Shown here one piece after another: positions 8,496 to 31,089 of a stretch of 52,106 nucleotides of DNA. Made by a program: the position numbers and the translations under genes. Each line of letters starts with the position of its first letter. Position 1 is the first letter of the stretch. The DNA comes from Candidatus Harrisonbacteria bacterium RIFCSPHIGHO2_02_FULL_42_16. GTDB taxonomy: Bacteria > Patescibacteriota > Minisyncoccia > UBA6257 > 02-FULL-45-10c. The notes under the pieces were generated by a model. The model was not told where the DNA came from. It did no database searches and saw only the letters and a list, made by a program, of their open reading frames with translations. The stretch spans positions 1-52,106 of the forward strand of contig MHJG01000021.1 in NCBI GenBank assembly GCA_001818695.1, in the 5' to 3' direction.

Positions 8496-8521
8496 GAAAT
8501 TACTTTAATATAGGATGATTA

Positions 8522-8715
8522 GTTATATAAATATAACATTAGAGAATGAAAAGGAGTTATGTCCGGCACTACAACTGCGACAAGAGTAATTTAATGTGTT
8601 GGGATAAAATTAGATAAACTATGTTTAATATCAAGGTCAAATTAAATTATAATCGCGAAGCCCGGTGTTACAATAATAATTGTGACGCCGGACAGTCGCA
8701 GTTGTAGCACCGGGT
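8522..8715 (+). promoter_or_regulatory. Structured leader with competing helices before the pyruvate kinase/ATP sulfurylase fusion
   Basis: The gap holds a GTTATATAAAT promoter-like box at 8522-8532 and a TATAAT at 8648-8653. Three helices are readable. (1) 8563-8581 pairs with 8695-8713, 17 of 19 bp, including CTACAACTGCGAC with its exact complement. (2) 8561-8567 GTCCGGC pairs with 8687-8693 GCCGGAC. (3) 8661-8667 CCCGGTG pairs with 8708-8714 CACCGGG and encloses a 7-bp hairpin at 8668-8685 with loop AATA. Helices 1 and 3 use the same bases just before the ATG at 8716, so they exclude each other. An 11-codon frame (8559-8594, MSGTTTATRVI) covers the left arm behind AAGGAG, but the spacing of 2 bases is poor. 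No known riboswitch class is recognised. Confidence 0.45.
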
Positions 8716-10947
8716 ATGGTTAAAAAAATCGTCACTTTAGGGCCAGCTACTAGAACTGAAGAGATGCTGAAGAAAATGAAAGATCGCGGAGTGGATTTTG
8801 TCCGGGTGAATATGTCTCATTCCAGCTTGGAAGATTTGGAATATTTTATTTCGTTGGCTAAAAAAGTCGGCTTGCAATTCATCATTGATACACAGGGATC
8901 TCAAATCAGAAGCGGCGATTTGGCAGAAAAATCTTTTTTGCTTGAAGAAAATGAAGAAGTTAAAATTCACGCTACTCCTATTAGAGGCGATCGAAATAAC
9001 ATTTCTTTAAATCCGGGCGAAATTGTTTCCCAGCTGGAAGAAGGCGATATTTTGCGTCTGGATTTTAATGGCTTAATTTTGCAGGTTGTTGATACCACTA
9101 CATTAGATCGCGGCTATATTATTGCTCGAGTGATTAGTTCTGGCATGCTTGGCAGAAATAAAGGCGTAGTAGTGGATTCTTGGAATGGACGGACTTATGA
9201 TATTCCAGCCCTTACCCCAACGGATTATCAATCTATTGCTATTGGATTGCGGGAAGGGATTGGCCACATTGCCGCTTCTTTTATGCGTTCCGGGGCTTTT
9301 GTGGATGAAGTGAGAAGAGCTACTAATAATTCCATGAAAATAATTTCTAAGTTGGAATGCCTGGATGGGATGAATAATCTTAATGAAATTATTGAAAAAT
9401 CGGAGTATCTTTTGATTGACCGGGGAGATTTAAGCAAGGAATTGCCGGTGGAAAAGCTTCCGTTTATCCAGAAAATTATTATTGAGCGCGCTCGAAAAAA
9501 GGGAAAAGAAGTTTTTGTTGCCACTAATCTTTTGGAAACTATGGTTCATAACCGAAGGCCGACTCGGGCAGAAGTGCAGGATGTGGTTAATACCATTGTA
9601 GATGGCGCGGCAGGGCTTGCTTTAGCATCGGAAACCGCTATTGGAGAATACCCAATTGAATGTATTAATATGTTGAATCGTTTCATTGGTCAAGTTCAGG
9701 AAAATGTGAATGTAAAAGAATTGCGCGCTAATGGCAATCTTTTAGTAAGCCAGTTGGAAGTTAAAGATTTCATTCTAAAATCTTTTTCCTTCTCCAATTT
9801 AGTCCAGCCCCACGGAGGAAAATTAGTTTATCGGATTATTCCTCTGCCGGCGCCGGAATATTTAGAAAAACTTCCTAAAATTAATCTTAATCAAAATCAA
9901 CTAATGGATGTTGAGCAAATTGCTCTTGGCACTTTCAGCCCCTTGGAAGGATTTTTGGGGCGGGAAGATTTGGAAAGCGTATTAAATACCACCCGGCTTA
10001 AAAGCGGAGTTATTTGGCCGATTCCGATTGTTTTGGATGTTTCGCATAAAGACGCAGAGCCATTAAAAGTTGGCAGCGAGGTTGCATTAACAGATTCTGG
10101 CGGGCAGCCGTTTGCCATTCTTCATTTGGCAGAAAAATATGATTTTGATAAAAAAGAGCTGGCGGAAAAATTATACGGGACACTGGATGAAAAACATCCA
10201 GGAGTGAAAATAGCCATTTCGCTTCAGCCGGTTTTTTTGGCAGGAAAGATTGATTTTTTTAAACGTTTCGATAGAGAAAGTAAAAAATATGAATTATCGC
10301 CGAGGCAGACCAGGCAGATTTTCCGGGAAAGGGGCTGGTCTACGGTTGTTGGTTTCCATACCCGGAATGTTATCCATCGCGGGCATGAATTTATCCAGCT
10401 ACGCGCTTTAGAACAGGAAGCCTGCGATGGATTGCTGGTGCATCCGGTTGTCGGAGCAAAAAAACCGGGAGATTTCCATACTAAATATATAATGCAGAGT
10501 TATCAGAAAATGATGGATAGTTTTTATCCAAAGAATAAGGTTATTTTGGCGGCTTTTAATACTTATTCCCGTTATGCCGGCCCTCGGGAAGCGATTTTCA
10601 CCGCTCTTTGCCGGAAGAATTTCGGTTGCAGCCATTTTGTGGTTGGCCGGGATCATACCGGAGTCGGGAAATTTTACGATCCGCATGCTTCGCAAAAGAT
10701 TTTTGATTCTTTCCCGGATATCGGAATAAAGATAGTGAAATTGCAGGCAATTTATTCCAAAACTAGAAATACTTATATTGCATCTCCAGAGGAAGCTATG
10801 GGTGACGAGATTATTGATATCAGCGGAACGCAAGCGCGGACCATGCTAGTGCGGTCTGAATTTCCACCTGCCTGGTATATGCGTCCGGAAATCGCTGAAG
10901 ATATTATTCAGGCAGTTAAAAACGGAGAAGAAGTATTTGTAAAATAA
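8716..10947 (+). CDS. Pyruvate kinase / ATP sulfurylase (sulfate adenylyltransferase) fusion protein
   Basis: 743 residues with two enzyme modules. Residues 1-335 are a pyruvate kinase barrel with its B domain: RVNMSHS (29-35), DTQGSQIRS (58-66), SKLE with the catalytic Lys/Glu (211-214), RGDL (236-239), the ATNLLETM threonine loop (269-276) and ASETAIGEYP. The usual pyruvate kinase C-terminal domain is absent. After a linker, residues 360-520 match the PUA-like N-domain of ATP sulfurylase and 521-743 the catalytic domain, with HTRNVIHRGHE (548-558), GRDHTG (644-649) and ISGTQARTML (702-711). ATP sulfurylase makes APS and pyrophosphate from ATP and sulfate; pyruvate kinase makes ATP from PEP and ADP. 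The TKGPE motif reads TQGSQ, so kinase activity needs testing. A sulfotransferase follows. I know of no described enzyme with this layout. Confidence 0.93.
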   Translation: MVKKIVTLGPATRTEEMLKKMKDRGVDFVRVNMSHSSLEDLEYFISLAKKVGLQFIIDTQGSQIRSGDLAEKSFLLEENEEVKIHATPIRGDRNNISLNPGEIVSQLEEGDILRLDFNGLILQVVDTTTLDRGYIIARVISSGMLGRNKGVVVDSWNGRTYDIPALTPTDYQSIAIGLREGIGHIAASFMRSGAFVDEVRRATNNSMKIISKLECLDGMNNLNEIIEKSEYLLIDRGDLSKELPVEKLPFIQKIIIERARKKGKEVFVATNLLETMVHNRRPTRAEVQDVVNTIVDGAAGLALASETAIGEYPIECINMLNRFIGQVQENVNVKELRANGNLLVSQLEVKDFILKSFSFSNLVQPHGGKLVYRIIPLPAPEYLEKLPKINLNQNQLMDVEQIALGTFSPLEGFLGREDLESVLNTTRLKSGVIWPIPIVLDVSHKDAEPLKVGSEVALTDSGGQPFAILHLAEKYDFDKKELAEKLYGTLDEKHPGVKIAISLQPVFLAGKIDFFKRFDRESKKYELSPRQTRQIFRERGWSTVVGFHTRNVIHRGHEFIQLRALEQEACDGLLVHPVVGAKKPGDFHTKYIMQSYQKMMDSFYPKNKVILAAFNTYSRYAGPREAIFTALCRKNFGCSHFVVGRDHTGVGKFYDPHASQKIFDSFPDIGIKIVKLQAIYSKTRNTYIASPEEAMGDEIIDISGTQARTMLVRSEFPPAWYMRPEIAEDIIQAVKNGEEVFVK

Positions 10948-10967
10948 ATTATTTTTAATTGATTAAG

Positions 10968-11933
10968 ATGAACAAGGAAAGAAAATTGAAAATTGGCAGC
11001 CGAGCGCCGCTAGTTAAAAATTTACTCTTGGTGGAGGGTCCGTCGCGAGCCGGAAAGTTTGTGTTAGCGAACGTTATAACTGGGTTTCGTGGCGTGGAAC
11101 CGATTCAATATTACGATCTTTTGGAACATCTGCCATTTTTGGAAAAAATGGGGTTTATTGAGAAAAAAGCGGCTCAAGAGCTTATTCGCGCCACGATTGA
11201 TACCCATAGTTTTGAAATGCTGCTTGGCCGGGGATTTAATTACCGGAAGGACGATCTATCCTCAATTTTCAACCATCCATCGTATAAGCAGTATTTAAAA
11301 CGGGCGAAACAGTCAGACTGGGATGCCGCATGGAAAAAATTCCAAAAAGAAAAACCGTATAGTTTGTATGTGGCTCATGAATTGATGCCGAATATAGAAA
11401 TTTATTTTGAAATGTTTCCGGATATAAAAGTTATCAGTTTGCAAAAAAGTCCGGTTGATTTAGTTAATGCCTGGTTGGAAAAACATATAGCAGGACGTTT
11501 TGGCACCGACCCCAGATTGATGAATATTTTATTGAATCATAAAAACGGGCCAACGCCATGGTTTGTAAACGGCTGGCAAGGAGAATATAACCAGCTTTCG
11601 GAAACTGATAGAACTATTAAAGCAGTTCTGCATATCCAGGATATGTACCAGAAAGCTTATAAGAAATTGCGTCCGGCGTGGAAGAAAAAAATACTAGTTC
11701 TTCGGTTTGAAGATGTGCTTTTTGACACTGTCAAAACGGTGAAAAAAATAGGCAAGTTTTTAAAACGTGACACTTTGCCGGGAATAAAGAAAATCTATAA
11801 GAATCTTATTCTTCCTCGACCCGCCCACCTTGCTTTTCGGGAGGAAATGATAAAGAAAATTAAAAAGACCGCTTCGTCGAAATATATAAATTTATTAATA
11901 GCAGCTGAAACGCGATATTGCTCTAAAAATTAA
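10968..11933 (+). CDS. Sulfotransferase family protein
   Basis: 321 residues from the ATG at 10968; a TTG nine bases upstream is in frame but less likely. EGPSRAGK (residues 23-30) matches the 5'-phosphosulfate-binding loop of PAPS sulfotransferases. KVISLQKSPVDLVNAWLEK (about 154-172) matches the 3'-phosphate-binding strand and helix, although the usual Arg-Asp-Pro is Lys-Ser-Pro. LRFEDVLFD (about 245-253) is the downstream family motif. It lies 20 bp after the ATP sulfurylase fusion, so sulfate activation and transfer are probably co-expressed. The acceptor is presumably a glycan hydroxyl. No APS kinase is in the window, so the source of PAPS is not shown here. Confidence 0.75.
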   Translation: MNKERKLKIGSRAPLVKNLLLVEGPSRAGKFVLANVITGFRGVEPIQYYDLLEHLPFLEKMGFIEKKAAQELIRATIDTHSFEMLLGRGFNYRKDDLSSIFNHPSYKQYLKRAKQSDWDAAWKKFQKEKPYSLYVAHELMPNIEIYFEMFPDIKVISLQKSPVDLVNAWLEKHIAGRFGTDPRLMNILLNHKNGPTPWFVNGWQGEYNQLSETDRTIKAVLHIQDMYQKAYKKLRPAWKKKILVLRFEDVLFDTVKTVKKIGKFLKRDTLPGIKKIYKNLILPRPAHLAFREEMIKKIKKTASSKYINLLIAAETRYCSKN

Positions 11934-15429: not shown

Positions 15430-16188
15430 ATGAAAAATATTCGCATTATGCCCCGTTTGGATATTAAGGGTCCGAATGTGGTAAAGCCGGTGCATACTGA
15501 AGCTTTGCATGTTGTTGGAGATCCAAAAGAATTGGCTCAGCGGTATTATCAGCAGGGGGCGGATGAAATTATTTATATGGATATTGTTGCCAGCCTTTAT
15601 GGCCGGAATTTGGATTTTGATTTACTGCGTTCGGTTACGGAAAATATTTTTGTTCCGGTAACCGTCGGCGGCGGCATCCGCACTATTCATGACATTAATA
15701 ATGCCCTGCGCGCCGGCGCGGATAAGGTGGCGATTAACACTTACGCGATTCACCGACCGGAGTTTATTTCCGAAGCGGCAAAAGAATTTGGCTCCCAATG
15801 CATTGTTTTATCTATTGAAGCTAAAAAACAAAGCGACGGCTTTTGGGAGGCTTATACTGATGGCGGCAGGGAGTCCTCCGGCTTGGATGCGATTGAATGG
15901 GCGAAACGCGGATTGGAATTGGGAGCCGGAGAATTAATGATCACCTCCATTGATCAGGATGGGACCGGTCGAGGTTATGACCTGGATTTGATTAAGAAAA
16001 TTACCAGCTTCGTTTCTGTACCAGTTATTGTTTATGGAGGCGCCGGGAATCAAGAATCTTTTTTAAAAGTTATCAATGATGGCGGGGCAGATGCGGTAGC
16101 TGCGGCTTCAGTATTTCATTATCGTAATTTATCCATTCCTGGCGTTAAAAAATTTTTAAAAATTAACGGCATTAATGTTCGAACATGA
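15430..16188 (+). CDS. HisF-like cyclase/synthase subunit of a sugar amidotransferase system
   Basis: 252 residues, clearly HisF fold: VGGGIRTIHDINNALRAGADKVAIN and a D-x-x-G-x-x-x-G segment (DQDGTGRGYDL). In histidine synthesis HisF uses ammonia from HisH. Here it sits with HisH and a PseA/WbpG protein, as in O-antigen clusters (hisH2-hisF2-wbpG), where the set makes acetamidino or amide sugars. The catalytic Asp11 is kept, but the second catalytic acid, Asp130 of histidine HisF, is Glu130 in the sequence SIEAKK. No other histidine gene is present, which also argues against a role in histidine synthesis. It overlaps hisH by 4 bp. A TATATT box lies 2 bases before the ATG. Confidence 0.88.
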   Translation: MKNIRIMPRLDIKGPNVVKPVHTEALHVVGDPKELAQRYYQQGADEIIYMDIVASLYGRNLDFDLLRSVTENIFVPVTVGGGIRTIHDINNALRAGADKVAINTYAIHRPEFISEAAKEFGSQCIVLSIEAKKQSDGFWEAYTDGGRESSGLDAIEWAKRGLELGAGELMITSIDQDGTGRGYDLDLIKKITSFVSVPVIVYGGAGNQESFLKVINDGGADAVAAASVFHYRNLSIPGVKKFLKINGINVRT

Positions 16189-16823
16189 ATAAAACAAAAA
16201 TAACCATTGTGGATTACGGAGTCGGCAATTTATCCAGCTTAAAAAAGGCCTTTAAATTTTTTGGCATGGAAGCGGATATTTCAGAAGATCCGCAATCAGT
16301 TGAGCGGGCCGATGCTGTTGTTCTTCCAGGAGTCGGATCTTATGAAGCGGGCATGCGGGGCTTAAAAGTCAGGGGATTGGTTGATGCTGTCAGGGGGGCG
16401 GCAGAAAAAAATAGGCCGATGCTGGGAATTTGCCTCGGCGCTCAGTTGTTATTAAGCCAAGGATTAGAATTCGGAGTTTTTAATGGACTGGATATTATTT
16501 CTGGAAAAGTTGTGCGTTTTCCAGATTTGGAGAATAATGAAAAAATACCGCAAATCGGGTGGAATGGAGTTTGTCCGCTTAAAGACCAAACTTGGCAAAA
16601 AACCATTTTTGATTCTCTGTCGGAAAATTTTAACGCCTATTTTGTACATTCATATATTTTTAATCTTGATAATAAAGAAGATATGCTGGGATTAACTAAA
16701 TATGGCGGTTATGAATTTTGTTCAGCTTTTAAGAAGGGAAATATTTATGGTTGCCAATTTCATCCGGAAAAAAGCGGCCCAGCCGGATTAAAAATTATTA
16801 AAAATTTTATTGATTTAATATGA
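16185..16823 (+). CDS. HisH-like glutamine amidotransferase subunit
   Basis: 212 residues, class I glutaminase. The nucleophile is Cys83 in GICLGAQLLL, and the His/Glu pair is H193/E195 in CQFHPEKS. PGVGSYEAGM and NAYFVHSY are typical HisH segments. It releases ammonia from glutamine and passes it to the partner HisF barrel. It overlaps hisF (4 bp) and the PseA/WbpG-like gene (4 bp), so the three are translationally coupled and probably form one complex. As with the HisF-like gene, the context points to amidation of a sugar and not to histidine. Confidence 0.9.
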   Translation: MNKTKITIVDYGVGNLSSLKKAFKFFGMEADISEDPQSVERADAVVLPGVGSYEAGMRGLKVRGLVDAVRGAAEKNRPMLGICLGAQLLLSQGLEFGVFNGLDIISGKVVRFPDLENNEKIPQIGWNGVCPLKDQTWQKTIFDSLSENFNAYFVHSYIFNLDNKEDMLGLTKYGGYEFCSAFKKGNIYGCQFHPEKSGPAGLKIIKNFIDLI

Positions 16824-18085
16824 AAGCTAAATACGGATTGCCGGACGGGATAAAGTTTTGCAAGCGGTGCGTCATGCCCAATACACGCCCATCTTCTTCA
16901 AATGAATATCAGCATACCATTGCCCGCCAGCACAATTTTCTAAAATTTGATCAGGAGGACGTTTGTTCGGCCTGCCGGTTTTGCGAGGCCAAGGACAAAA
17001 TTATCAATTGGGAAGAGCGGGAAAAAGAATTAGTGAAGCTCCTGGATAAATACCGGAGCAGTGACGGTTCCTACGACGTTTTAGTGCCGGGCAGCGGCGG
17101 CAAGGACAGCGTTTACGCTTCTTACCTTTTAAAATACAAATACGGCATGCATCCATTGACCGTGACGTGGTCCCCGCATTTGTATACCGATATTGGCTGG
17201 AAAAATTTTCAGAGCTGGCTTCATCGCGGCGGCTTTGATAATTATTTATTTACCCCTAACGGGAAAATCCACCGATTAATTACTAGAAATGCTTTTATAA
17301 ATTTACTGCATCCTTTCCAGCCGTTTATTTTCGGTCAGAAAACTTTCGCGGTAAAAATGGCGGCGCATTTTAACATTCCACTAGTATTTTACGGAGAAAA
17401 TCCCGGCGAATACGGCGCCAATATTTCCATTAATCAAAATAAATTTGATTCAGACCCCCAGTCCAAGGAAGCTAAAGTCGGCGGATCTTCCGGCCATCAG
17501 GTTAATTTTATTGATAAAAATTTGAAGCCCAATGAGATTTTCTTGGGCGGGAAATCAGTATCGGATTATCTTAAGGAAGGGGTTTCTTACGGCGACCTTA
17601 GCCCGTTCTTGCCGCTGAATTCCGATTTAGTTAAAAATAAAAATATTGAATTCCATTTTTTGGGATTTTATATTAAGTGGGTTCCTCAGGAATGTTATTA
17701 TTTTGCAGTCAAACATACCGGTTTTGAAGCCAACCCGGTCAGAACCGAAGGAACTTATTCCAAATACAACAGCATTGATGATAAAACTGACGGTTATTTT
17801 TACTACACGACTTACATTAAATTCGGTTACGGCCGAGCAACTCAGGATGCCGCTCAGGAAATTCGGAATCACCATATCACCCGAGATGAAGGCGTGGCGC
17901 TGGTTAAGCGATTTGACGGAGAGTTGCCGAAAAAATATTTGCCGGAATTCCTGGACTACATCAGCTTATCCGAAAAGGAATTTTTAGAAATCATCGATTC
18001 ATTTCGAGACGATCATATCTGGAAAAAGGTTAATGGTGAATGGAAATTGCGGCATACGGTTTGGGGCGGCGGAACCGATGATTAA
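16820..18085 (+). CDS. N-acetyl sugar amidotransferase (PseA/WbpG family)
   Basis: 421 residues. The PP-loop ATP pyrophosphatase motif SGGKDS is at 92-97. Two cysteine clusters (C14/C17 and C49/C52/C55) form the zinc or iron-sulfur knuckle seen in this family. WbpG in Pseudomonas and PseA in Campylobacter need this protein to convert an acetamido group to an acetamidino group on a sugar. It activates the carbonyl with ATP, and ammonia comes from the HisH/HisF pair directly upstream. The gene overlaps hisH by 4 bp and is followed 19 bp later by a CMP-sugar synthetase. This supports an amidine-bearing nonulosonic acid. The exact sugar is not known. Confidence 0.9.
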   Translation: MKAKYGLPDGIKFCKRCVMPNTRPSSSNEYQHTIARQHNFLKFDQEDVCSACRFCEAKDKIINWEEREKELVKLLDKYRSSDGSYDVLVPGSGGKDSVYASYLLKYKYGMHPLTVTWSPHLYTDIGWKNFQSWLHRGGFDNYLFTPNGKIHRLITRNAFINLLHPFQPFIFGQKTFAVKMAAHFNIPLVFYGENPGEYGANISINQNKFDSDPQSKEAKVGGSSGHQVNFIDKNLKPNEIFLGGKSVSDYLKEGVSYGDLSPFLPLNSDLVKNKNIEFHFLGFYIKWVPQECYYFAVKHTGFEANPVRTEGTYSKYNSIDDKTDGYFYYTTYIKFGYGRATQDAAQEIRNHHITRDEGVALVKRFDGELPKKYLPEFLDYISLSEKEFLEIIDSFRDDHIWKKVNGEWKLRHTVWGGGTDD

Positions 18086-18094
18086 ATAAACCAT

Positions 18095-18100
18095 TATTAT
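18095..18100 (+). promoter_or_regulatory. -10 box touching the start codon of the CMP-sugar synthetase
   Basis: TATTAT lies four bases before the ATG at 18105, in a 19-bp gap. No Shine-Dalgarno site is seen. This is another candidate leaderless start inside an otherwise operon-like run. Confidence 0.35.
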
Positions 18101-18104
18101 ATAT

Positions 18105-18827
18105 ATGAAATCTAAAAAAGTTTTAGTAGTTATCCCGGCTCGGGGTGGTTCTAAGCGGATTCCTAATAAAAATATTCGGAATTTTTTAGGTAAGCCGCTC
18201 ATTGCTTATACAATTAAGCAGGCATTAAAAGTCCCATTTGTGGATCGGGTGATTGTGGATACTGATTCCCCTAAAATTGCCGCTTTTGCCAAAAAATATG
18301 GGGCTGAAGCGCCATGGTTGCGTCCCGCGCATTTGGCCGCTGACAAGTCTAAGGTTATAGACGCCTTAACATATCTTCTTCAGCGTTTAAATAAAGAAGA
18401 GGGCTATCAGCCGGACTACTTGTTGTTATTACAAACTACTTCGCCGCTTAGGGAGTTAAAAGATATCCAAGCTTGCTGGAAATTGATGCAGAATTCTGAT
18501 GCCACTACGGTTTTGACTGTTTCTACCACTCATCCGCAACTTTACTATTTAGATAAAGATAAAAACTTATCTTTAGCTAATAGAATTGTAGTTAATCATA
18601 GCAATACCCAGGCTTGGCCGCCGGCTTACCTTTTAAACGGCTGTTTTGTTTATATAGTGAAGGTGTCAGCGCTTTTGAAAGAGCAGGCAGTTCTTACCAA
18701 AAATACTAAAGCAGTTATCTGCGATAAATGGCGGTCGGTGGATTTGGATAATCCGGAGGACTGGGCACTGGCAGAATTGCTGTATAAAAATAGAAAAGCG
18801 ATTGCTAAAAGAATTAAAAATATATGA
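18105..18827 (+). CDS. neuA: CMP-nonulosonate (acylneuraminate) cytidylyltransferase, copy 1
   Basis: 240 residues. IPARGGSKRIPNKNI near the N-terminus is the CTP-binding loop of NeuA/LegF/PseF enzymes. Further family marks are RVIVDTDSPKIAAFAKKYGAEAPWLRP, LLQTTSPLR and DLDNPEDW. It couples CTP to the anomeric hydroxyl of a nonulosonic acid and releases pyrophosphate, giving the donor for glycosyltransferases. It overlaps the following oxidoreductase by 4 bp. A second member is at 37102-37818, which suggests two activated acids or one redundant step. Which acid each uses cannot be read from sequence. Confidence 0.88.
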   Translation: MKSKKVLVVIPARGGSKRIPNKNIRNFLGKPLIAYTIKQALKVPFVDRVIVDTDSPKIAAFAKKYGAEAPWLRPAHLAADKSKVIDALTYLLQRLNKEEGYQPDYLLLLQTTSPLRELKDIQACWKLMQNSDATTVLTVSTTHPQLYYLDKDKNLSLANRIVVNHSNTQAWPPAYLLNGCFVYIVKVSALLKEQAVLTKNTKAVICDKWRSVDLDNPEDWALAELLYKNRKAIAKRIKNI

Positions 18828-19849
18828 ATAAAAATAGCCACTTAAGATTTTTTATAGTTGGTTTGGGTTCTATGGGCAAGCGGCGAATTCGCAATCTTTA
18901 TGCTAATAGCGAAAAGGATATTGTTGGTTTTGATATCCGTCCAGACAGAAACAAAGAAGCGCAGGAAAAGTATGGCATAAAAGTGGTTGAAAATTTTAAG
19001 GATGTGTTGCCGGAGAATTTTGATGTTTTGATTATTTCTACCCCCCCTGAGGCGCATGGTGATTATATCCGTTTTGCCATTAAGCACAAAAAACATTTTT
19101 TTGTGGAACATCCGGTTTTTGACGACGGCTATCAGGATATTTTTGCCGAAAAGCGGCGGAAAGATTCTATGATCGTCATGGCTCCTTCCTGCACCATGCT
19201 TTTTTATCAGCCGGTCAAAATGATAAAAAAGATTTTAGATGATGGGAAAATCGGAAAAATCTTGGCGTTTCAATATCATATGGGGCAATATTTGCCGGAT
19301 TGGCATCCGTGGGAGGATTATCGGGATGTGTATTTCTCTAAAAAAGAAACCAGCGCCTGCCGGGAAATGTTGCCGTTTGAGCTTATTTGGCTTAATTCAG
19401 TGATGGATTCCCGGGTGGCGGAAATAGCTGGAACAATCACTAAAGTTTCTAATTTGGACATGGATGCGGATGACATTGCGTTAGCAAATGTAAAATATGA
19501 AAACGGGATTTTCGGAAATATTATTATTGATGTTATTTCTCGGAAACCGTTTAGGACTTTGCGGGTTTTGGGTTCTGACGGTATTTTGGATTGGGAGAAA
19601 TTCAGCCATAGCATTGTCGTTTATGATGCCAAAACCAAGCAATCCGAAACAACCACTATTCCTCAAGGGCATCTGGAGCCGGGCTATGTGAATCCGGAAG
19701 AGCAGTACATTGAGGAAATAAAAGCATTTCTGGATACGATTGCCGGGAAGGGGAAGTATCCGCATTCTTTTGAAGAAAATTTGCATAATTTGAAAACTTT
19801 GTATGCCCTTGAAAAGGCGTATAAATCCAAAACATATCAATCAGTATGA
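18824..19849 (+). CDS. Gfo/Idh/MocA family NAD(P)-dependent oxidoreductase
   Basis: 341 residues. The Rossmann loop IVGLGSMGKRRIRNL is at residues 11-25. The family EKP motif appears as VEHP (94-97), so the usual lysine is histidine. The C-terminal alpha/beta domain holds the MDADDIALANVKYENGIFGNI segment common to sugar oxidoreductases. It probably oxidises or reduces a sugar hydroxyl or keto group. It overlaps the CMP-sugar synthetase upstream and the cupin downstream by 4 bp each, so the three are coupled. In nonulosonic acid clusters such oxidoreductases tailor the sugar; the substrate is unknown. Confidence 0.83.
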   Translation: MNKNSHLRFFIVGLGSMGKRRIRNLYANSEKDIVGFDIRPDRNKEAQEKYGIKVVENFKDVLPENFDVLIISTPPEAHGDYIRFAIKHKKHFFVEHPVFDDGYQDIFAEKRRKDSMIVMAPSCTMLFYQPVKMIKKILDDGKIGKILAFQYHMGQYLPDWHPWEDYRDVYFSKKETSACREMLPFELIWLNSVMDSRVAEIAGTITKVSNLDMDADDIALANVKYENGIFGNIIIDVISRKPFRTLRVLGSDGILDWEKFSHSIVVYDAKTKQSETTTIPQGHLEPGYVNPEEQYIEEIKAFLDTIAGKGKYPHSFEENLHNLKTLYALEKAYKSKTYQSV

Positions 19850-20253
19850 AAGTGGTTCGTAAAGAAGAAATAAACAAATTTTTAGAGCGAGAGCCGGTTG
19901 TCGGAAAAAAGATGCTGGAGCCGCTGCGAACTTTAGTTTTGGCGAAAGAATTGCCATTTGGAATCGTGGAGGATTTTGAGGTTAAAGAAAGCGAAGCGGA
20001 AGTTCATAAGCATGAAGGTGATTTATGGCTTTGCCTTGAAGGGGAGGTGGAATTTACTTGCGGTGGCGAGTTGGTGGAATCATGGATTAGAGATGGCTCT
20101 AACGGCAATGAGCTTGGCGGAAAAGATATTAAAAATGGCCAAAAAGTGGTTTTAAAGTCGGGCGATTGGCTTTGGATTCCGCCAGGCGAACCTCACCTTC
20201 ATCGCGCGAAATTAGCGCGAATGGTTGTTGTGAAAGTTCCGAATTGGTCTTAA
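19846..20253 (+). CDS. Cupin-domain protein, copy 1 of 3
   Basis: 135 residues. The conserved N-terminus (VRKEEINKFLE, then KKMLEPLRTL and ELPFGIVED) is shared with the genes at 37823 and 38319. Cupin motif 1 is EVHKHEGDLWLCLEGE with both histidines, and motif 2 is GDWLWIPPGEPHLH, so a metal site of the usual type is likely. Single-domain cupins bind sugars or act as epimerases, isomerases or dioxygenases. All three copies sit near nonulosonic-acid genes, so a sugar substrate is plausible, but no reaction can be assigned. The start overlaps the oxidoreductase stop by 4 bp. Confidence 0.75.
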   Translation: MKVVRKEEINKFLEREPVVGKKMLEPLRTLVLAKELPFGIVEDFEVKESEAEVHKHEGDLWLCLEGEVEFTCGGELVESWIRDGSNGNELGGKDIKNGQKVVLKSGDWLWIPPGEPHLHRAKLARMVVVKVPNWS

Positions 20254-20287
20254 TCCCAATTCGAGTTTGTATAGTAATTTAAGCGAG

Positions 20288-20432
20288 CTACCCATCTGTC
20301 GTGCGGCAATTTCGGAGGCGCTAAAAGCACGGTTCGAGCACATAAAATTTATGTGCTCGGTTTTAGCGCTGAGACATAGGAGCTGTTTCGCGCTGGCGGG
20401 ACAGACTCCGGTGCCGGTAGGCAGATAGGTAG
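20288..20432. repeat. Nested palindromic element upstream of an EamA transporter
   Basis: Four nested inverted pairs: 20288-20298 with 20422-20432 (10 of 11), 20313-20317 CGGAG with 20406-20410, 20318-20326 GCGCTAAAA with 20361-20369, and an inner 12-bp perfect stem, 20335-20346 with 20348-20359 (CGAGCACATAAA, 1-base centre). The stretch looks richer in G+C than its surroundings. It ends just before a strong promoter. It could be a small non-autonomous repeat or a structured RNA. It codes for no recognisable protein. Confidence 0.6.
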
Positions 20433-20444
20433 TGAGCGACGGAG

Positions 20445-20473
20445 TTGACAGCTGATTTTTTTGTGTGTATACT
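20445..20473 (+). promoter_or_regulatory. Strong sigma-70-type promoter of the EamA transporter gene
   Basis: TTGACA (20445-20450), a 17-base spacer, then TATACT (20468-20473). The predicted leader is about 30 bases with a GGGAGG ribosome site at 20500-20505, five bases before the ATG at 20511. Confidence 0.75.
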
Positions 20474-20510
20474 TTTATCAATCTTTGATAATTGAATCTG
20501 GGAGGGATGA

Positions 20511-21407
20511 ATGCCCTGGCAAGTACCGGCTGTTCTGACGATTTTGATTGCTTACATATTCCAGTCATTTTTAATTAAAAAAGTTGCTAATGCGCCCGGA
20601 AGAGCGAGAAATCTGGTTCTTCAGTATTTTTTTGCCGCTACTTTAATTTGGCTTTTCGTTATTATATCAGATCTTTTAGGATTGATTAAATTTGGCATTG
20701 ATACAAGGATGCTGATGGTTACCGGGATTTGTTTGATCAATGCATTTGCCTGTTACGCCCATTGGCGGGCGACGGCGATTAATATGGCTGTTACTTCGGT
20801 TTCCACTTGGGCCGACGATTTAACCAAAATGTTTCTTGGCTATCTGTTTTTGCACGAAGGCCAGTATTTAAATCCAACATTGGGGCTTGGCATCTTGTTT
20901 GTTTTCGGATCAGTATTGATTTTTGCTCTTGCTAAAAATTCTCTTCAGGGAATTAGCAGTCAAAATCTCGGGAGAATTTATTTATGGATTGGTTCTTACA
21001 GCCTTATCTGGGGAGGATTGGGCTTCTTGATGCGTTATTTGGCTCTTGGCGGAATGTTATGGTGGCAATTTCTGATTTCCTGGTATTTAGGGTCATTTAT
21101 CGGGTCTTGCATACTATTTCTTTTTTCCGATGATGTGGAACGAGGCGTTAATGTCCCACTGAAAGAGTCTGTTCGGGGTCCGTTAATGTTATCTTTTTGT
21201 ATTGTTGCATCTTTGGGAACTTCTTATTGGACCAATTCTTTGGCGCCGATAGTTGTTACCACCCCGGTTTTCCAGGTTTCGGAAATGATATTCCCGACTC
21301 TGATTGGATTATATATCTATAATGAAAAAAAGAATTTTAACTGGCTTGGCTGGGTGGCAATGGGTTTAGGATTAGTCGGTGGTTTGATAATTGCTTTTAG
21401 TTTCTGA
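20511..21407 (+). CDS. EamA/DMT-type membrane transporter
   Basis: 298 residues with about ten hydrophobic helices in two similar halves, the EamA (drug/metabolite transporter) layout. The mid-protein HWRATAINMAVTSVSTWADDLTK segment and the C-terminal VTTPVFQVSEMIFPTLIGLYI segment are conserved-type helices. Members of this superfamily move sugars, amino acids or undecaprenyl-linked sugars across the inner membrane. It has its own TTGACA/TATACT promoter and a GGGAGG site that fixes the ATG at 20511. A weak terminator follows. Together with the genes at 21579, 38869 and 42158 it makes four EamA-type modules in the window. The substrate is unknown. Confidence 0.78.
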   Translation: MPWQVPAVLTILIAYIFQSFLIKKVANAPGRARNLVLQYFFAATLIWLFVIISDLLGLIKFGIDTRMLMVTGICLINAFACYAHWRATAINMAVTSVSTWADDLTKMFLGYLFLHEGQYLNPTLGLGILFVFGSVLIFALAKNSLQGISSQNLGRIYLWIGSYSLIWGGLGFLMRYLALGGMLWWQFLISWYLGSFIGSCILFLFSDDVERGVNVPLKESVRGPLMLSFCIVASLGTSYWTNSLAPIVVTTPVFQVSEMIFPTLIGLYIYNEKKNFNWLGWVAMGLGLVGGLIIAFSF

Positions 21408-21409
21408 CT

Positions 21410-21436
21410 CCGTCCTGTAATGGGGCGGATTTTTTA
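21410..21436 (+). terminator. Likely rho-independent terminator after the EamA gene
   Basis: Stem CCGTCC (21410-21415) with GGGCGG (21423-21428), including one G-T pair, followed by ATTTTTTT. Confidence 0.55.
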
Positions 21437-21484
21437 TATACTGAAATAGTTTATTAAAATTACAGCTTTTGGGTTGTGGAGTGG

Positions 21485-21526
21485 GCATATCCAAGTGCTA
21501 CGCTATGGCGTAGCACTTGGATATGC
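21485..21526. repeat. Perfect 19-bp hairpin between convergent EamA genes
   Basis: GCATATCCAAGTGCTACGC (21485-21503) and its exact complement (21508-21526) enclose the loop TATG. There is no T-run on the plus strand. It lies between the two converging EamA transporter genes and may stop read-through from either side or stabilise 3' ends. No homologous copy is seen elsewhere in the window. Confidence 0.8.
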
Positions 21527-21578
21527 GAAGCTTGGAATATAAAGAAACCACGGCTGTAAGGCCGAGAAGTTTTATTTA

Positions 21579-22412
21579 TCAGCGGGCTAATAAGAATAAT
21601 CCGAAAACCAGTGCCGAGCCAATAAGTAATTTGTGGACTAGATGTTTTTCTTGAAAATAGCTGTGGCCGGAAATGATTCCAGCTAAAAGGGATGCGGTTC
21701 TTTCTGCCGCCATGGCAATGCCGGGATTCCCGAAAGAAATCGCAAAGGCGCCAAAGATAGAAGCGATGCCGCTTATAAATCCTTGTCCGAAAAATATCCT
21801 CTGTTTTAAAAAGACCAGCGGATTTTCTTTCGCCTTCCACTGGGCCATAAAAAATAAATAAATCAGCAAAATAGCGATAATCAGCATTTCTTCCGCCTCC
21901 ACTGAATTAAAATGGGTGATGTTGTATTTAAAGAGAGAAATGGTGGCTACGGCATTGACAGCGGTAAAAATCGGATACCCGACGTCTTTTAAATTAAAAA
22001 TTTTAAAAAGAAAAATAGATCCGAAAACTAGGAAAATTAAACTGATTCCAAACCATTGGATTGGGCTGACGGTAAACCCAATCAGGAAGTCCACGATTAA
22101 AAGGAGCGGAATGGTGAGATTTCTGACTATCGCGTAAGTGCTGCGTTCTGTTTTTGTAATCGCTAACAGCATTGCATGGGTTTGGATGATTTCTAAAAAT
22201 GCCCGGAGCGTAAAAGTGGGCAGAGAAGCCAGATTGAAGATAAAACTATTTCGCCAATAAGCAATAGCTGTAAAGATTAGCATTCCAAAAAGAAAATTAA
22301 TGAATCCAGCCGAATACATGCTAATTTTTTTCTGGTCGGTTTGGAATTTGATAATTGACGTTGGAATTTCGCTGATAAAACTTCCTAATGAAGCAAAAAG
22401 TACGGTAAGCAT
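21579..22412 (-). CDS. EamA/DMT-type membrane transporter
   Basis: 277 residues with about nine to ten hydrophobic helices. NPGIAMAAERTASLLAGIISGHSYFQEKHLVHKLLIGSALVFGLFLL at the C-terminus matches the last EamA helices, and SIIKFQTDQKK in the N-terminal cytoplasmic loop is charged. It converges on the EamA gene at 20511 and diverges from the GT-B-like gene at 22488, with whose -35 box its start codon almost overlaps. No Shine-Dalgarno site is seen before the ATG. It probably moves a small organic solute or carrier-linked sugar; nothing in the sequence shows which. Confidence 0.74.
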   Translation of the reverse strand: MLTVLFASLGSFISEIPTSIIKFQTDQKKISMYSAGFINFLFGMLIFTAIAYWRNSFIFNLASLPTFTLRAFLEIIQTHAMLLAITKTERSTYAIVRNLTIPLLLIVDFLIGFTVSPIQWFGISLIFLVFGSIFLFKIFNLKDVGYPIFTAVNAVATISLFKYNITHFNSVEAEEMLIIAILLIYLFFMAQWKAKENPLVFLKQRIFFGQGFISGIASIFGAFAISFGNPGIAMAAERTASLLAGIISGHSYFQEKHLVHKLLIGSALVFGLFLLAR

Positions 22413-22420
22413 AAGAAAAG

Positions 22421-22449
22421 TTGACTTTTTTGAGTTTATTGTTTAGTAT
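22421..22449 (+). promoter_or_regulatory. Promoter of the GT-B-like gene at 22488
   Basis: TTGACT (22421-22426), 17 bases, TAGTAT (22444-22449). AAGGAG (22475-22480) lies seven bases before the ATG. The spacer and -10 closely resemble those of the promoter at 43656-43684. Confidence 0.7.
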
Positions 22450-22487
22450 ACCTTTTAGTAATCGAAAAATCCAAAAGGAGATAGAAA

Positions 22488-23558
22488 ATGCGGAAACTGC
22501 GGAAACTGCGGTTAGCGGTTGTTTCTAAAGATAACGGTGATACCAAGATGCTTTTGCCGATTGCGCGGGAAGCGCGCCAGCTTGGCCATAAAGTGATTAT
22601 TTTAGCCGAAGGCGTCGGGGTTGACCATTATATCAAGCAAGGAGTAAAAACTTTTTTCCGAGACGTTTCAAATCCTGATCCGAAAACTGATTTTGATCTC
22701 GAGTTTTTGTTAAGCATGGCAAAGCCCGATGCAGTGCTCGTAGGTTTCCCTGGCCCGAACAATCTTTCTGGGAAAATCAGCGCGGTTGCGAATGATATGG
22801 GCATACCACTGATTGGCGTGGAAGATTATTGGGGAGGCGTAAAAAGATATTTGGAATTCAAATATTCTTTGCTGCTTACCATTGATGATTACGCGGCGGA
22901 GATAGCTAGGAATGCACTGGGACCAAAAGTTCCGATTTCGGTGATTGGGAATCATGCAGTTTCCGGTTTAGATTATCGTTCTCCAGAAGCTGTGCTGGCG
23001 GGTATGGAAGAATTGAAAAAAAGATTTAACCAAGTTTTTGTTTTTGGCGGCGGGGGAGGCAAGCACACTACCGAAGAATTGAAATTATTGGTGCCCTCGC
23101 TTCAAAAAACTCCTGGCAATTGGTGCCTGGTTCCGCGTTATCACCCGAATCTTAAAAAGAAATTAGCTGAAGAAATAGGAGACCAGCGCACTTTTCAGGA
23201 AGTCTGGGATGAACTTTTGCTTCCGCTTGGCGATCGGGTTGTCCGCCTGGATGCTGGGAATAGCGATGACATGGCAGTAGTTTCCGATGCGTATTTTTCC
23301 GGATTGGGATCGTCTATGAATACGGCGATTTATTCCGGGAAGCCGACTATTGCGGTGGTGACTGCCGCAACTATGGAAGCGATTCGCGATTCCAAACTTG
23401 ATGCGGTTCCGGCAGTGGAGCTTGGCGGAGCCAAAACTCTTACGGAAGTCCAAGATTTGCAGCCGCTTCTTGTTCCTCCAAATGATGAAGTCCGGAAGAA
23501 ATTCAAGCCGCTGGATGCGAATCTGGCAGTCAGGAAAATAGAGAAATTGTTATTTTAA
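22488..23558 (+). CDS. Putative GT-B-fold glycosyltransferase-like protein
   Basis: 356 residues. The first half is a Rossmann-like domain (RLAVVSKDNGD, then ARQLGHKVIILAEG and DAVLVGFPG). The second begins after PISVIGNHAVSGLDYRS, with VFVFGGGGG and AYFSGLGSSMNTAIYSGKPTIAVV, where a sugar nucleotide would sit in GT-B enzymes. I do not recognise a named family. The gene at 43722 has the same layout, including the GNH motif at the domain junction, and nearly the same promoter, so the two are probably distant paralogues. It is followed by a strong terminator, so it is a single-gene unit. A glycosyltransferase or 2-epimerase-like role is inferred from fold and place only. Confidence 0.6.
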   Translation: MRKLRKLRLAVVSKDNGDTKMLLPIAREARQLGHKVIILAEGVGVDHYIKQGVKTFFRDVSNPDPKTDFDLEFLLSMAKPDAVLVGFPGPNNLSGKISAVANDMGIPLIGVEDYWGGVKRYLEFKYSLLLTIDDYAAEIARNALGPKVPISVIGNHAVSGLDYRSPEAVLAGMEELKKRFNQVFVFGGGGGKHTTEELKLLVPSLQKTPGNWCLVPRYHPNLKKKLAEEIGDQRTFQEVWDELLLPLGDRVVRLDAGNSDDMAVVSDAYFSGLGSSMNTAIYSGKPTIAVVTAATMEAIRDSKLDAVPAVELGGAKTLTEVQDLQPLLVPPNDEVRKKFKPLDANLAVRKIEKLLF

Positions 23559-23567
23559 TTATAATTT

Positions 23568-23593
23568 CCCCTTCAAAATTGAAGGGGATTTTT
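23568..23593 (+). terminator. Rho-independent terminator
   Basis: Perfect stem CCCCTTCAA (23568-23576) and TTGAAGGGG (23579-23587) with loop AA, followed by ATTTTT. It ends the single-gene unit at 22488-23558. Confidence 0.85.
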
Positions 23594-23631
23594 GTTGAAA
23601 CAATCACCTAATTTTATTGGTTTTAAATTGA

Positions 23632-24687
23632 ATGAAATCAATTTTTATAGGAAAGAAAAAAGTTAATTACGGCTTAAGGCCGTTTATAGTTGCGGAAGCC
23701 GGGGTGAATCATAACGCGCGGCTGGATTTGGCACTTCAGCTGATTGACGCGGCGGCTTATGCCGGCGCGGATGCAGTAAAGTTCCAGACCTTCCGGCCGA
23801 ATCAGGTAGTGACTGCTGCCGGCGAGATGGCGGATTATCAAAAGCGGAATTTAGGAAAATCTGAAAGCCAGCTCGCAATGGTGAAGAAATTAGAATTGGC
23901 GGAAAAACATTGGCCAAAACTGGTTGAGCGCGCTAAAGAGCGGGGAATTATTTTTTTCTCAACGCCTCACGGGCACATTGATTCGGCCGATTATCTTCAG
24001 CAAAAATTGAAAGTGCCGGCGTTTAAATTTGGTTCCGGCGATTTAACTAATATTCCTTTGTTGGAGCATGTTGCGAAATTTAAAAAGCCGATGATTCTTG
24101 GCACTGGCATGGCTGATTTAGAGGAAGTGAAAGAGGCAGTGGAGGCGATTAAAAAAGCCGGCAACAGTCAGATTGTGGTTTTGCATTGCACGACTGATTA
24201 TCCGCTTGCTCCAGAAAATGTGAATCTTCGCGCCATGCAAACCATGATGAGAGAACTGGGGGTTTTAGTCGGTTATTCCGACCATACGCTTGGGCCGCAA
24301 ACTGCTGTGATGGCAACTGCTATGGGTGCCTGCATGATAGAAAAACATCTTACGTTGGATAATAATCTGCCCGGTCCGGACCATGTGGCTTCCATGGAAC
24401 CGATGGAATTTAAAGAAATGGTTAAACAAATTGAAAAAGCGGCGGCTATTTTAGGCAGTTCGCAGAAGAAATTATTGAAATGCGAGAAGCAATATGTTTC
24501 GGTTGCGAGGAAAAGTCTGGTAACCGCAAATAAAGTTAAAAAAGGAGAAAAATTCACTTTGAAGAATTTAACTGTCAAGCGTCCGGGCAACGGTCTGCTT
24601 CCGAAACGGCTGAAGGAAGTGGTAGGCAAGCGGGCAACTAAAGCGATTCCAAAAGATACTGTATTGACCGAAGAAATGATAGGGTAA
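23632..24687 (+). CDS. neuB: N-acetylneuraminate/legionaminate synthase-type enzyme (NeuB family)
   Basis: 351 residues. The TIM-barrel domain has FIVAEAGVNHNARLDLA at residues 18-34, DAVKFQTF (47-54), GSGD, VVLHCTTDYP and VGYSDHTLG, all typical of NeuB/LegI/PseI. The C-terminal about 65 residues are the antifreeze-like SAF domain (KSLVTANKVKKGE to LLPKRLKEVVGK). The enzyme condenses phosphoenolpyruvate with a six-carbon N-acylated sugar to give a nine-carbon acid. With the NeuC-type epimerase at 25714 the route is sialic or legionaminic-like. The sugar specificity is not readable. It is followed by a terminator shared with the convergent phosphatase gene. Confidence 0.92.
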   Translation: MKSIFIGKKKVNYGLRPFIVAEAGVNHNARLDLALQLIDAAAYAGADAVKFQTFRPNQVVTAAGEMADYQKRNLGKSESQLAMVKKLELAEKHWPKLVERAKERGIIFFSTPHGHIDSADYLQQKLKVPAFKFGSGDLTNIPLLEHVAKFKKPMILGTGMADLEEVKEAVEAIKKAGNSQIVVLHCTTDYPLAPENVNLRAMQTMMRELGVLVGYSDHTLGPQTAVMATAMGACMIEKHLTLDNNLPGPDHVASMEPMEFKEMVKQIEKAAAILGSSQKKLLKCEKQYVSVARKSLVTANKVKKGEKFTLKNLTVKRPGNGLLPKRLKEVVGKRATKAIPKDTVLTEEMIG

Positions 24688-24698
24688 AAATAAAAACA

Positions 24699-24719
24699 GC
24701 ATCTTTTAAGATGCCGTTT
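24699..24719. terminator. Bidirectional terminator with a stop codon in its loop
   Basis: Stem GCATCTT (24699-24705) and AAGATGC (24708-24714), with a T-run to the right (CGTTTTT) and an A-run to the left (AAAAATAAAAACA) that serves the minus strand. The TAA of the convergent PP2C gene (complement of 24706-24708) sits at the loop. Confidence 0.8.
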
Positions 24720-25617
24720 TTGAATTTGAAAATTCAATGGCTATAGCAGTTGCTTCAGTATGGGTGATATAAGTCTTTTTTTCATTTTCTCTTTCCCATT
24801 TTCTTTTTGCAAAAAGAATATTTTGAAGGCCGCCATTCCTATAAGTTTCCAGAAGATATTTTTTCATTGATTCATCACTTTCAAATTTTTTGCGGTCAAT
24901 TAATCCGTCAGTAAAAAGCAGCAGCAATTTCAATGAAGATTTCGGCAGCTGGGTGTAAAACCAGGATTTTTCTAAATCCGGCTGGCCATTCAAAAGTCCG
25001 AAACCACCTGGTGATTTAGGATTATTAATATTTTTCTTTCTCTGCTTAATCAAGACAGGAAGATACTTATCCCAGGCGGCAGCGCGCGCTGCTGAAAGAT
25101 CGCCTCCATTTTCTTTCAAAGATTTTTCCTGGAATTGTCGGAAGAGGTTGTCTCCCCGTTGATCATGATTTAAGACTTGGTCTTTGGTTAAACTGGTTGT
25201 GCCATCAGCATTAACCCAAAAAGCATAGCTGTCGCCGGCTTGCATAATTTCAACAGTTTCGCCGGATAATCTGGCTGCTGCAAAAGTTGCTCCGGCAAGA
25301 TTAGCGCTATCCTTAAGAGACATTCGCATTTCTGTTAGTTGGAGCTTGGCAATGCTTTGGTTAGTAATCATTAATAATTTTTTAAGGTCAGCATTGGCAT
25401 CGGATGAATAATGTTGCAAGCTTTCACTGGCGGTTTTTACTAAAAGTGCGCCGCTGCTTAATTGTTTTTCACCATAGCGTTTTTTCGGGCTAGCTTTGCT
25501 GTATGGCGTGCTGACGCCGTCAAAAACAGCAAAAATCGGGGGAGAAATAACCAAGCCGTCTTCTTGATCTTCAGCAGTTCCGATTTCAGATACAAGCTCC
25601 AGTTTTTTATAGAGCAT
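24706..25617 (-). CDS. PP2C-type serine/threonine protein phosphatase
   Basis: 303 residues with the PP2C metal-site motifs in order: AVFDGVST (about 29-36), NLAGATFAAARL, MQAGDSYAFWV, LLLFTDGLI and TEATAIAIEF at the end. The usual DGHGG is DGVST, as in bacterial PP2C proteins with divergent motif 2. There are no membrane segments, so it acts in the cytoplasm on phosphoserine or phosphothreonine proteins. No kinase is in the window. It has its own TTGCCA/TATAAT promoter and a perfect AGGAGGT ribosome site, so it is an independent unit inserted between neuB and neuC. It may regulate this locus or the whole cell. Confidence 0.78.
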   Translation of the reverse strand: MLYKKLELVSEIGTAEDQEDGLVISPPIFAVFDGVSTPYSKASPKKRYGEKQLSSGALLVKTASESLQHYSSDANADLKKLLMITNQSIAKLQLTEMRMSLKDSANLAGATFAAARLSGETVEIMQAGDSYAFWVNADGTTSLTKDQVLNHDQRGDNLFRQFQEKSLKENGGDLSAARAAAWDKYLPVLIKQRKKNINNPKSPGGFGLLNGQPDLEKSWFYTQLPKSSLKLLLLFTDGLIDRKKFESDESMKKYLLETYRNGGLQNILFAKRKWERENEKKTYITHTEATAIAIEFSNSKTAS

Positions 25618-25651
25618 CCCACCTCCTATTTAATTATTAGTTGCTGGAAGT

Positions 25652-25680
25652 ATTATAAGATATTTTGATTGATTTGGCAA
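25652..25680 (-). promoter_or_regulatory. Promoter of the PP2C gene
   Basis: On the minus strand, TTGCCA (25675-25680), 17 bases, TATAAT (25652-25657). The ribosome site AGGAGGT is the complement of 25621-25627, three bases from the ATG at 25615-25617. Confidence 0.78.
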
Positions 25681-25704
25681 TAACTTTATAAATAATAATT
25701 CAGT

Positions 25705-25710
25705 TATATT
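25705..25710 (+). promoter_or_regulatory. -10 box touching the neuC start codon
   Basis: GTTATATT, with TATATT at 25705-25710, lies three bases before the ATG at 25714. No Shine-Dalgarno site. Probable leaderless start of the long run to 34235. Confidence 0.5.
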
Positions 25711-25713
25711 TAT

Positions 25714-26868
25714 ATGTCTAAAAAGAAGAAAAAAATCGCCTATGTGTCCGGGACACGCGCGGATTACGGATTGATGACCTCAATTTTAAAAGCCATTGAT
25801 AAAAGCCCTAAATTGGAACTGTCTTTGTATGCTACTGGAATTCATTTGATGCCGAAATTTGGCGAAACTGCAAAGGATGTGAAAGGGGAATTTTCTCAAA
25901 CTAAGCGAATACCAGCAGTTTTTGAAAGTGATGACCGTTTAGGAATGGCCAAATTTTCCGGAGAATTTTTACAGAAATTAGTAAATGAATTTAATAAAAA
26001 CCGCCCGGATTTTGTGCTTACTCTTGGAGACCGTCCGGAGATGCTCGCGGTAGCCGTTGCTTGCCTATATTTAGGTATTCCTACCGGACAGATTTCGGCC
26101 GGTGACCGCAGTTTTACCGTGGATGAATTGGCGCGCCATGCCATTACCAAATTATCCTATTTGCACTTCCCGGCAACCAAAGAAGCCGCTAATCGGGTTA
26201 TTAAAATGGGTGAAGAAGCTTGGCGCGTGCATACGGTCGGAGCTCCGGGGTTGGATGTAATTTTAAATGAAAAACTGCCAAGCAGGAAAGAGGTGGAAAA
26301 TTATTTGAATTTGAAACCGGGCGGAAAATTCATTTTGTTGACCCAGCATCCGGTCAGCGAAGAATGGAGGGAATCAGGAAAACAAATAAAAGAAACACTT
26401 GCCGCTCTTAAAAAATTTAAATTTCCGATAGTGGCGACTTATCCTCACGCTGATGCCGGCGGGTTAAAAATTATTAAAGTTTTAGAAAAAGAAAAAACCA
26501 ACCCGCTTTTTAGAATATTCCCCAATGTTCCTTATAAAATGTTTTTAGCTTTACAAAGAGAAGCGGCGGTTTGGGTTGGGAATAGCAGTGGCGCAATTGT
26601 TGAGTCCTCTTCTTTTAAAACGCCGGTGGTAAATATCGGCATCCGTCAACTTGGGCGCCAGCATGGCGATAATGTGATTAATGTTGGTTATAATAGTAGA
26701 GAGATTGCGGTAGCAATTGAAAAATCTTTGCACAATAATAAATATTTAAAAAAACTATCCGCAATTAAAAATCCTTACGGCGATGGCAGAACAACAAAGA
26801 GAGTTATCCGCGTGTTGGAGCAATTAAAATTAAACGTCGCTTTGCTGAAAAAACAAATTACTTATTGA
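25714..26868 (+). CDS. neuC: UDP-N-acetylglucosamine 2-epimerase, hydrolysing type (NeuC/LegG family)
   Basis: 384 residues of the GT-B-like 2-epimerase fold. VSGTRADYGLM (residues 9-19) is the NeuC signature, followed by LGDRPEMLA and AGDRSFTVDELARH, LTQHPVSEEWRE, TYPHADAGG and VGNSSGAIVESSSF with TPVVNIG. Hydrolysing members release UDP and give ManNAc or a 6-deoxy-diamino analogue, the six-carbon substrate of NeuB. Presence of NeuC rather than PseG argues for a legionaminic or sialic route over pseudaminic. It leads a plus-strand run of eight genes with small gaps or overlaps. Confidence 0.92.
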   Translation: MSKKKKKIAYVSGTRADYGLMTSILKAIDKSPKLELSLYATGIHLMPKFGETAKDVKGEFSQTKRIPAVFESDDRLGMAKFSGEFLQKLVNEFNKNRPDFVLTLGDRPEMLAVAVACLYLGIPTGQISAGDRSFTVDELARHAITKLSYLHFPATKEAANRVIKMGEEAWRVHTVGAPGLDVILNEKLPSRKEVENYLNLKPGGKFILLTQHPVSEEWRESGKQIKETLAALKKFKFPIVATYPHADAGGLKIIKVLEKEKTNPLFRIFPNVPYKMFLALQREAAVWVGNSSGAIVESSSFKTPVVNIGIRQLGRQHGDNVINVGYNSREIAVAIEKSLHNNKYLKKLSAIKNPYGDGRTTKRVIRVLEQLKLNVALLKKQITY

Positions 26869-26883
26869 TATTGGAAATTATTT

Positions 26884-28522: not shown

Positions 28523-28542
28523 GGTTGTAAAAATAAAAATAC

Positions 28543-30222: not shown

Positions 30223-30224
30223 TT

Positions 30225-31076: not shown

Positions 31077-31089
31077 AAAAACTTAATTT

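Follow-up and report, generated by a model that had tools for sequence, protein, structure and literature searches.

A pyruvate kinase-ATP sulfurylase fusion in surface-glycan loci of Patescibacteria: a candidate PEP-powered arm of sulfate activation

The window, a 52,106-nucleotide stretch of DNA from Candidatus Harrisonbacteria bacterium RIFCSPHIGHO2_02_FULL_42_16, carries a single uninterrupted forward-strand frame of 743 codons that encodes a pyruvate kinase (PK) barrel followed by an ATP sulfurylase (Sat) (Table 1). Pfam matches cover residues 3 to 317 (PF00224; E 5e-67, 226.8 bits against a cut-off of 30), 364 to 516 (PUA_2, PF14306; E 1e-46) and 524 to 732 (ATP-sulfurylase, PF01747; E 9e-73), and the C-terminal half exceeds both of the curated NCBIfam cut-offs for Sat, NF003166 and TIGR00339 (427 against 387 bits and 351.9 against 322.95 bits, respectively). 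The whole-protein equivalog for PK, TIGR01064, gave 280.7 bits, under its cut-off of 306.4, because the C-terminal domain of PK is missing; an APS kinase (APSK) domain was sought in the protein and is absent. The original prediction, that a PK barrel lacking its C-terminal domain and a full Sat lie in one chain, was confirmed by the open reading frame and by Pfam. AlphaFold applied to PK-Sat (four sequences) returned an unusable model (pLDDT 48, pTM 0.35).

Table 1. Coordinates of the PK-Sat gene, its domains and motifs, and neighboring features in the window
Feature	Position	Strand	Basis or remark
PK-Sat fusion protein, 743 aa	8716..10947	+	ORF, Pfam, full-length relatives
PK barrel with B domain (PF00224), without C-terminal domain	8722..9666	+	
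TQGSQ, residues 59-63, in place of TKGPE	8890..8904	+	T-[EQ]-G-[SA]-Q in 14/14 members covering the site
PUA-like N-terminal domain of Sat (PF14306)	9805..10263	+	Pfam
Sat catalytic domain (PF01747)	10285..10911	+	Pfam
His548, in place of Gln of the Sat QxRN motif	10357..10359	+	His in 13/13 fused Sats, Gln in 9/9 other Sats compared
Thr629, in place of His (GPREAxxHA)	10600..10602	+	Thr in 13/13 fused Sats, His in 9/9 other Sats compared
Sulfotransferase-family gene (putative)	10959..11933	+	11 bp downstream of PK-Sat
Surface-glycan genes surrounding PK-Sat	15430..33418	+	HisF/HisH-like pair and amidotransferase-like protein, CMP-sugar synthetase, NeuB, UDP-GlcNAc 2-epimerase, Polysacc_synt_2

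The product of the gene immediately downstream of PK-Sat has weak Pfam sulfotransferase matches that fall below cut-off, and a close homologue lies above it (Sulfotransfer_1, 40 bits against 22). A profile built from five homologues and a fold model of low confidence (pLDDT 56) both matched almost exclusively PAPS-dependent sulfotransferases, and taken together these matches suggest a diverged protein of the sulfotransferase family. The glycan gene set listed in Table 1 is of the kind usual for nonulosonic-acid synthesis. Elsewhere in the window, a tandem pair of short-chain dehydrogenase genes at positions 1312 to 2832, nearly identical in their N-terminal parts, looks like a recent duplication.

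The fusion occurs in at least 12 independent assemblies, and because of this recurrence we rejected, as an explanation of the long frame, the joining of two frames by a sequencing or assembly error. Relatives were found in nine other patescibacterial assemblies, in one NC10 genome, and in Sinorhizobium and Ensifer. Identity is 54 to 60% for the copies from Giovannonibacteria (L004, with which G411 was counted as one), Falkowbacteria (L005, cut off by a contig end), NC10 (L003) and seven further patescibacterial genomes, and about 42% across 99% of the length for those on the closed megaplasmids of Sinorhizobium chiapasense and Ensifer adhaerens. The fusion is rare in the sampled class and phylum: among 384 class genomes there were seven carriers beyond the window genome and two carriers of the PK alone, and 380 phylum genomes yielded one additional carrier. 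A search of viral contigs returned only a short Sat fragment, and phage records gave matches to PK alone, mostly in unannotated records. Each half of the protein forms one clade in its own tree (support of 100/100 for the fused PKs and 98/97 for the fused Sats). No paper describing PK-Sat was found in the open-licence full-text literature that we searched for the fusion or its parts; the architecture thus appears undescribed in that literature, and domain databases may list it.

Most relatives have an APSK close at hand. Six (L005, L030, L031, L032, L033 and L036) are PK-Sat-APSK triple fusions, and a separate APSK gene lies directly downstream of PK-Sat in L004, L034, L077 and L078, so that APSK is found in the same chain or the next gene in 8 of the 10 Patescibacteria with PK-Sat; the downstream APSK gene of L034 (positions 10322 to 11698) is itself fused to a Sulfotransfer_2 domain. 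The NC10 copy has no attached APSK, and a separate canonical Sat-APSK is encoded about 6 kb upstream. Two loci, L037 and L038, encode a PK alone; both nest within the fused PK clade, and the Sat half has therefore probably been lost there. The stand-alone PK of L038 has as neighbors a sulfotransferase-like gene, a TauE-type permease and, at positions 12921 to 13679, a CTP_transf_like nucleotidylyltransferase fused with APSK, a possible substitute for Sat. No convincing APSK was found in the window genome (91% complete, as far as assembled) or in G425 (98% complete, one contig), both of which have PK-Sat; in G402 (98% complete), where the PK stands next to sulfotransferases, neither Sat nor APSK was found. 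In G402 the PK lies next to a sulfotransferase at L037 positions 8208 to 10149. Two APSK candidates were rejected: L013 in the window genome, a generic P-loop protein that scored 24 bits, and L048 in G402, an adenylate kinase in the secY operon.

All copies examined sit in polysaccharide or sulfation loci. Sulfotransferase genes adjoin or lie near the copies in the window, L003 to L005, L030 to L035, and the PK-only loci L037 and L038; none was identified near L036 or near the rhizobial copies. Genes of the inositol-monophosphatase family (Inositol_P) neighbor the fusion at L030 and L036, and the best score of the L036 product is to CysQ, yet it remains below the CysQ cut-off. CysD/CysH-type genes (PAPS reductase and CysD) were sought in 11 genomes, and none scored above cut-off, which makes sulfate reduction unlikely; no PF00719 (family I) pyrophosphatase was found in the same 11 genomes. 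The nearby sulfotransferases, the inositol-monophosphatase-family neighbors and the missing PAPS reductase and CysD indicate that the product is likely to be PAPS for the sulfation of surface glycans rather than for sulfate reduction. Glycan loci throughout, and the CMP-sugar synthetase or sugar nucleotidyltransferases close to the PK-only genes of L037 and L038, might suggest that the PK half regenerates UTP or CTP for nucleotide-sugar synthesis and not ATP for sulfate activation, but PK is physically joined to Sat (and APSK), its regular neighbors are sulfotransferases and APSK, and we regard nucleotide-sugar supply as highly improbable.

The PK half retains nearly all of the residues that bind PEP, metal and nucleotide in PK. 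The claim that TKGPE had become TQGSQ while the catalytic Arg, Lys, Glu and Asp were kept was borne out by residue comparison: the window protein reads DTQGSQIR where PykF reads DTKGPEIR, and it keeps Arg30, Asn32, Ser34, Lys212, Glu214, Asp238 and Thr270. We scored 13 PK ligand residues (R32, N34, S36, H37, D66, T67, R73, K156, K220, E222, G245, D246 and T278 in PykF numbering), of which 11 are invariant across all members and two, G245 and T278, are replaced only in L034; this far exceeds the background, in which 56 of about 330 columns are invariant (P 8e-8). For the rhizobial pair, a simple counting method at fairly diverged synonymous sites gave a dN/dS of 0.030 in the PK half against 0.091 in the Sat half, and these values point to strong purifying selection on the PK half. 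A fusion that occurs only once and carries a dead kinase, one of the two outcomes that would have undone the original prediction, is contradicted by the recurrence, the kept residues and the apparent selection, all of them evidence from sequence. We also consider it quite unlikely that the PK half serves as a scaffold or PEP sensor of weak catalytic activity through which the energy state of the cell gates Sat; such a role would suit the missing regulatory C-terminal domain and the changes at several canonical residues, but the residues for Mg, PEP and phosphoryl transfer hardly vary even at about 42% identity, and in the rhizobial pair evolution is slower in the PK half than in the Sat half.

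Family-specific changes in the PK half, beyond the motif in Table 1, comprise Ala to Asp at window residue D235, beside the Mg/PEP site, and Gln to Asn at N271. The nucleotide-site residues Asn32, His35, Arg65 and Lys149, which we take to be the counterparts of the known PK nucleotide contacts, are invariant in the family, and we know of no PK that phosphorylates a ribose 3'-OH. The altered motif, D235 and the two genomes that have PK-Sat and a sulfotransferase without APSK could be read as signs that the PK half phosphorylates an acceptor other than ADP, most interestingly APS, in which case PK-Sat would need no other enzyme to make PAPS from PEP. We find this reading very unlikely, for the presumed nucleotide contacts are conserved, APSK accompanies PK-Sat in most of its patescibacterial hosts, and Gln at residue 117 has a precedent in the branch of the K+-independent crenarchaeal PKs. 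At this position (rabbit numbering), Glu marks K+-dependent and Lys K+-independent enzymes, and a crenarchaeal branch inside the K+-independent cluster has Gln, Ser, Val and other residues (PMC4374775). Because the changed motif includes residue 117, altered K+ dependence would be the simpler reading of TQGSQ and a better explanation than a new acceptor; the motif, which the original prediction had put forward as a hint of such an acceptor, argues only weakly for one, given that residue 117 sets K+ dependence and that the nucleotide contacts are kept.

The Sat half has active-site changes of its own, which the original prediction did not mention. QxRN and GRD are characteristic substrate-site loops of Sat (PMC3779200), and the window protein has HTRN for the first and GRDHT for GRDHA in the second, with RN, HxxH and GRDH retained. 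The Gln-to-His replacement marks the fused Sat clade and is retained in Rhizobiaceae, and GRDHA has become GRDHT or GRDHS across the fused Sats. We give very little credence to the idea that the remodeled PK and Sat sites together constitute a one-chain, PEP-dependent synthase of PAPS, or of a related nucleotide, where APSK has been lost, with PK acting on APS or another nonstandard acceptor.

Sat converts ATP and sulfate to APS and PPi and so yields PPi and not ADP, and ADP is released in the APSK step, in which APS becomes PAPS. Since it is APSK and not Sat that releases ADP, the recycling of ADP for PAPS synthesis fits better than a supply of ATP to Sat alone; the original prediction of a PEP-driven ATP source tied to sulfate activation accordingly keeps its core, which is favored by the recurrence, the context, the kept residues and the selection, and loses its narrower form, in which the ATP would serve Sat only. 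We think it probable, although some way from assured, that PK-Sat is the arm that activates sulfate, powered by PEP, in a module for the sulfation of surface glycans, and that its PK recycles the ADP of APSK. The fusion, its recurrence, its gene context, the conserved catalytic residues, purifying selection and the single clade formed by each half are direct observations on which this proposal builds; from them we infer catalytic activity, exchange of ADP and ATP between the domains, and PAPS as the end product. Sat would make APS from ATP and sulfate with release of PPi, and APSK, in the same chain or the next gene in most relatives, would turn APS into PAPS and ADP. The attached PK would then use PEP to convert this ADP to ATP, so that ADP stays scarce and ATP plentiful in the vicinity, and the regenerated ATP would return to both activating steps, while PAPS would pass to the neighboring sulfotransferases. 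Removal of ADP would relieve a dead end at APSK, which becomes locked in a complex with ADP and APS (PMC3734648), and would help to draw the uphill Sat reaction forward; a PAPS cascade in vitro, in which APSK was likewise trapped with ADP and APS, needed PK and PEP (PMC9885120). The window genome and G425, with no convincing APSK, offer ADP recycling no obvious local partner, and the same model would have none in those two genomes or in G402 unless a gene was missed or PAPS is made in another way. The family-specific changes in the PK and Sat active sites likewise weigh against the model, as does the rarity of a second PK in the genomes that carry this one, which leaves some room for a glycolytic role.

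An alternative that we consider unlikely holds that the PK half is simply the glycolytic pyruvate kinase of the cell and that its fusion to Sat couples the two functions little. Nine of the 10 class-level genomes with a fused-family PK have no other PF00224 match, as this reading would predict, but 243 of 368 class genomes have no PK at all (125 have at least one), so that the absence of a second PK is common. Furthermore, the fused PKs form a distinct clade, every copy examined lies in a polysaccharide or sulfation locus, and the window genome encodes a mini-PK elsewhere, flanked by genes for enolase and phosphoglycerate mutase. This mini-PK (L002, positions 1240 to 2034; G000:C9) is 264 aa long and lacks the B and C-terminal domains; short PKs like it, mostly of 262 to 314 aa, occur in about 20 class genomes.

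Published Sat fusions join the enzyme to APSK, APS reductase or pyrophosphatase (PMC2275785). The bifunctional PAPS synthases and bacterial Sat-APSK proteins (NF004040/PRK05537) have the same Sat-APSK order as the six triple fusions, but these relatives add an N-terminal PK, the fused Sat has His for Gln in QxRN, and the window copy lacks APSK. The Sat-pyrophosphatase fusions of stramenopiles and haptophytes are alike in that a helper enzyme attached to Sat should pull the uphill reaction, by removing PPi in their case, whereas in PK-Sat it is ADP that would be removed, with PEP (PMC2275785). In vitro PAPS cascades with PK and PEP bring together the same activities, namely, Sat, APSK and PK/PEP followed by a sulfotransferase, but as engineered separate enzymes with an added pyrophosphatase, whereas the fusions described here are natural (PMC9885120). 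Canonical PK (TIGR01064, PykF) shares the barrel, the B domain and the catalytic residues with the fused PK, which differs in lacking the C-terminal domain, in carrying T[EQ]G[SA]Q and D235, and in forming a separate clade.

An ATP-regenerating enzyme fused to Sat would represent a new cellular way of driving sulfate activation, with PEP paying, and PK-Sat(-APSK) resembles a natural version of the trick by which biochemists drive PAPS synthesis. PK-Sat offers a case in which the recycling of a cofactor within one chain can be tested directly, and possibly a ready-made catalyst for enzymatic sulfation; it also provides evidence that some Patescibacteria with very small genomes invest in sulfated surface glycans. 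The copies in cultivable Ensifer and Sinorhizobium open the fusion to genetics. These copies lie in a conserved rhizobial megaplasmid locus (L077 and L078, 10.5 to 21.2 kb) that contains PK-Sat, APSK, a Wzy_C polymerase/ligase, a PqqD-domain protein and a nucleotidyltransferase, and the opposite strand of this locus bears long tandem paralogues.
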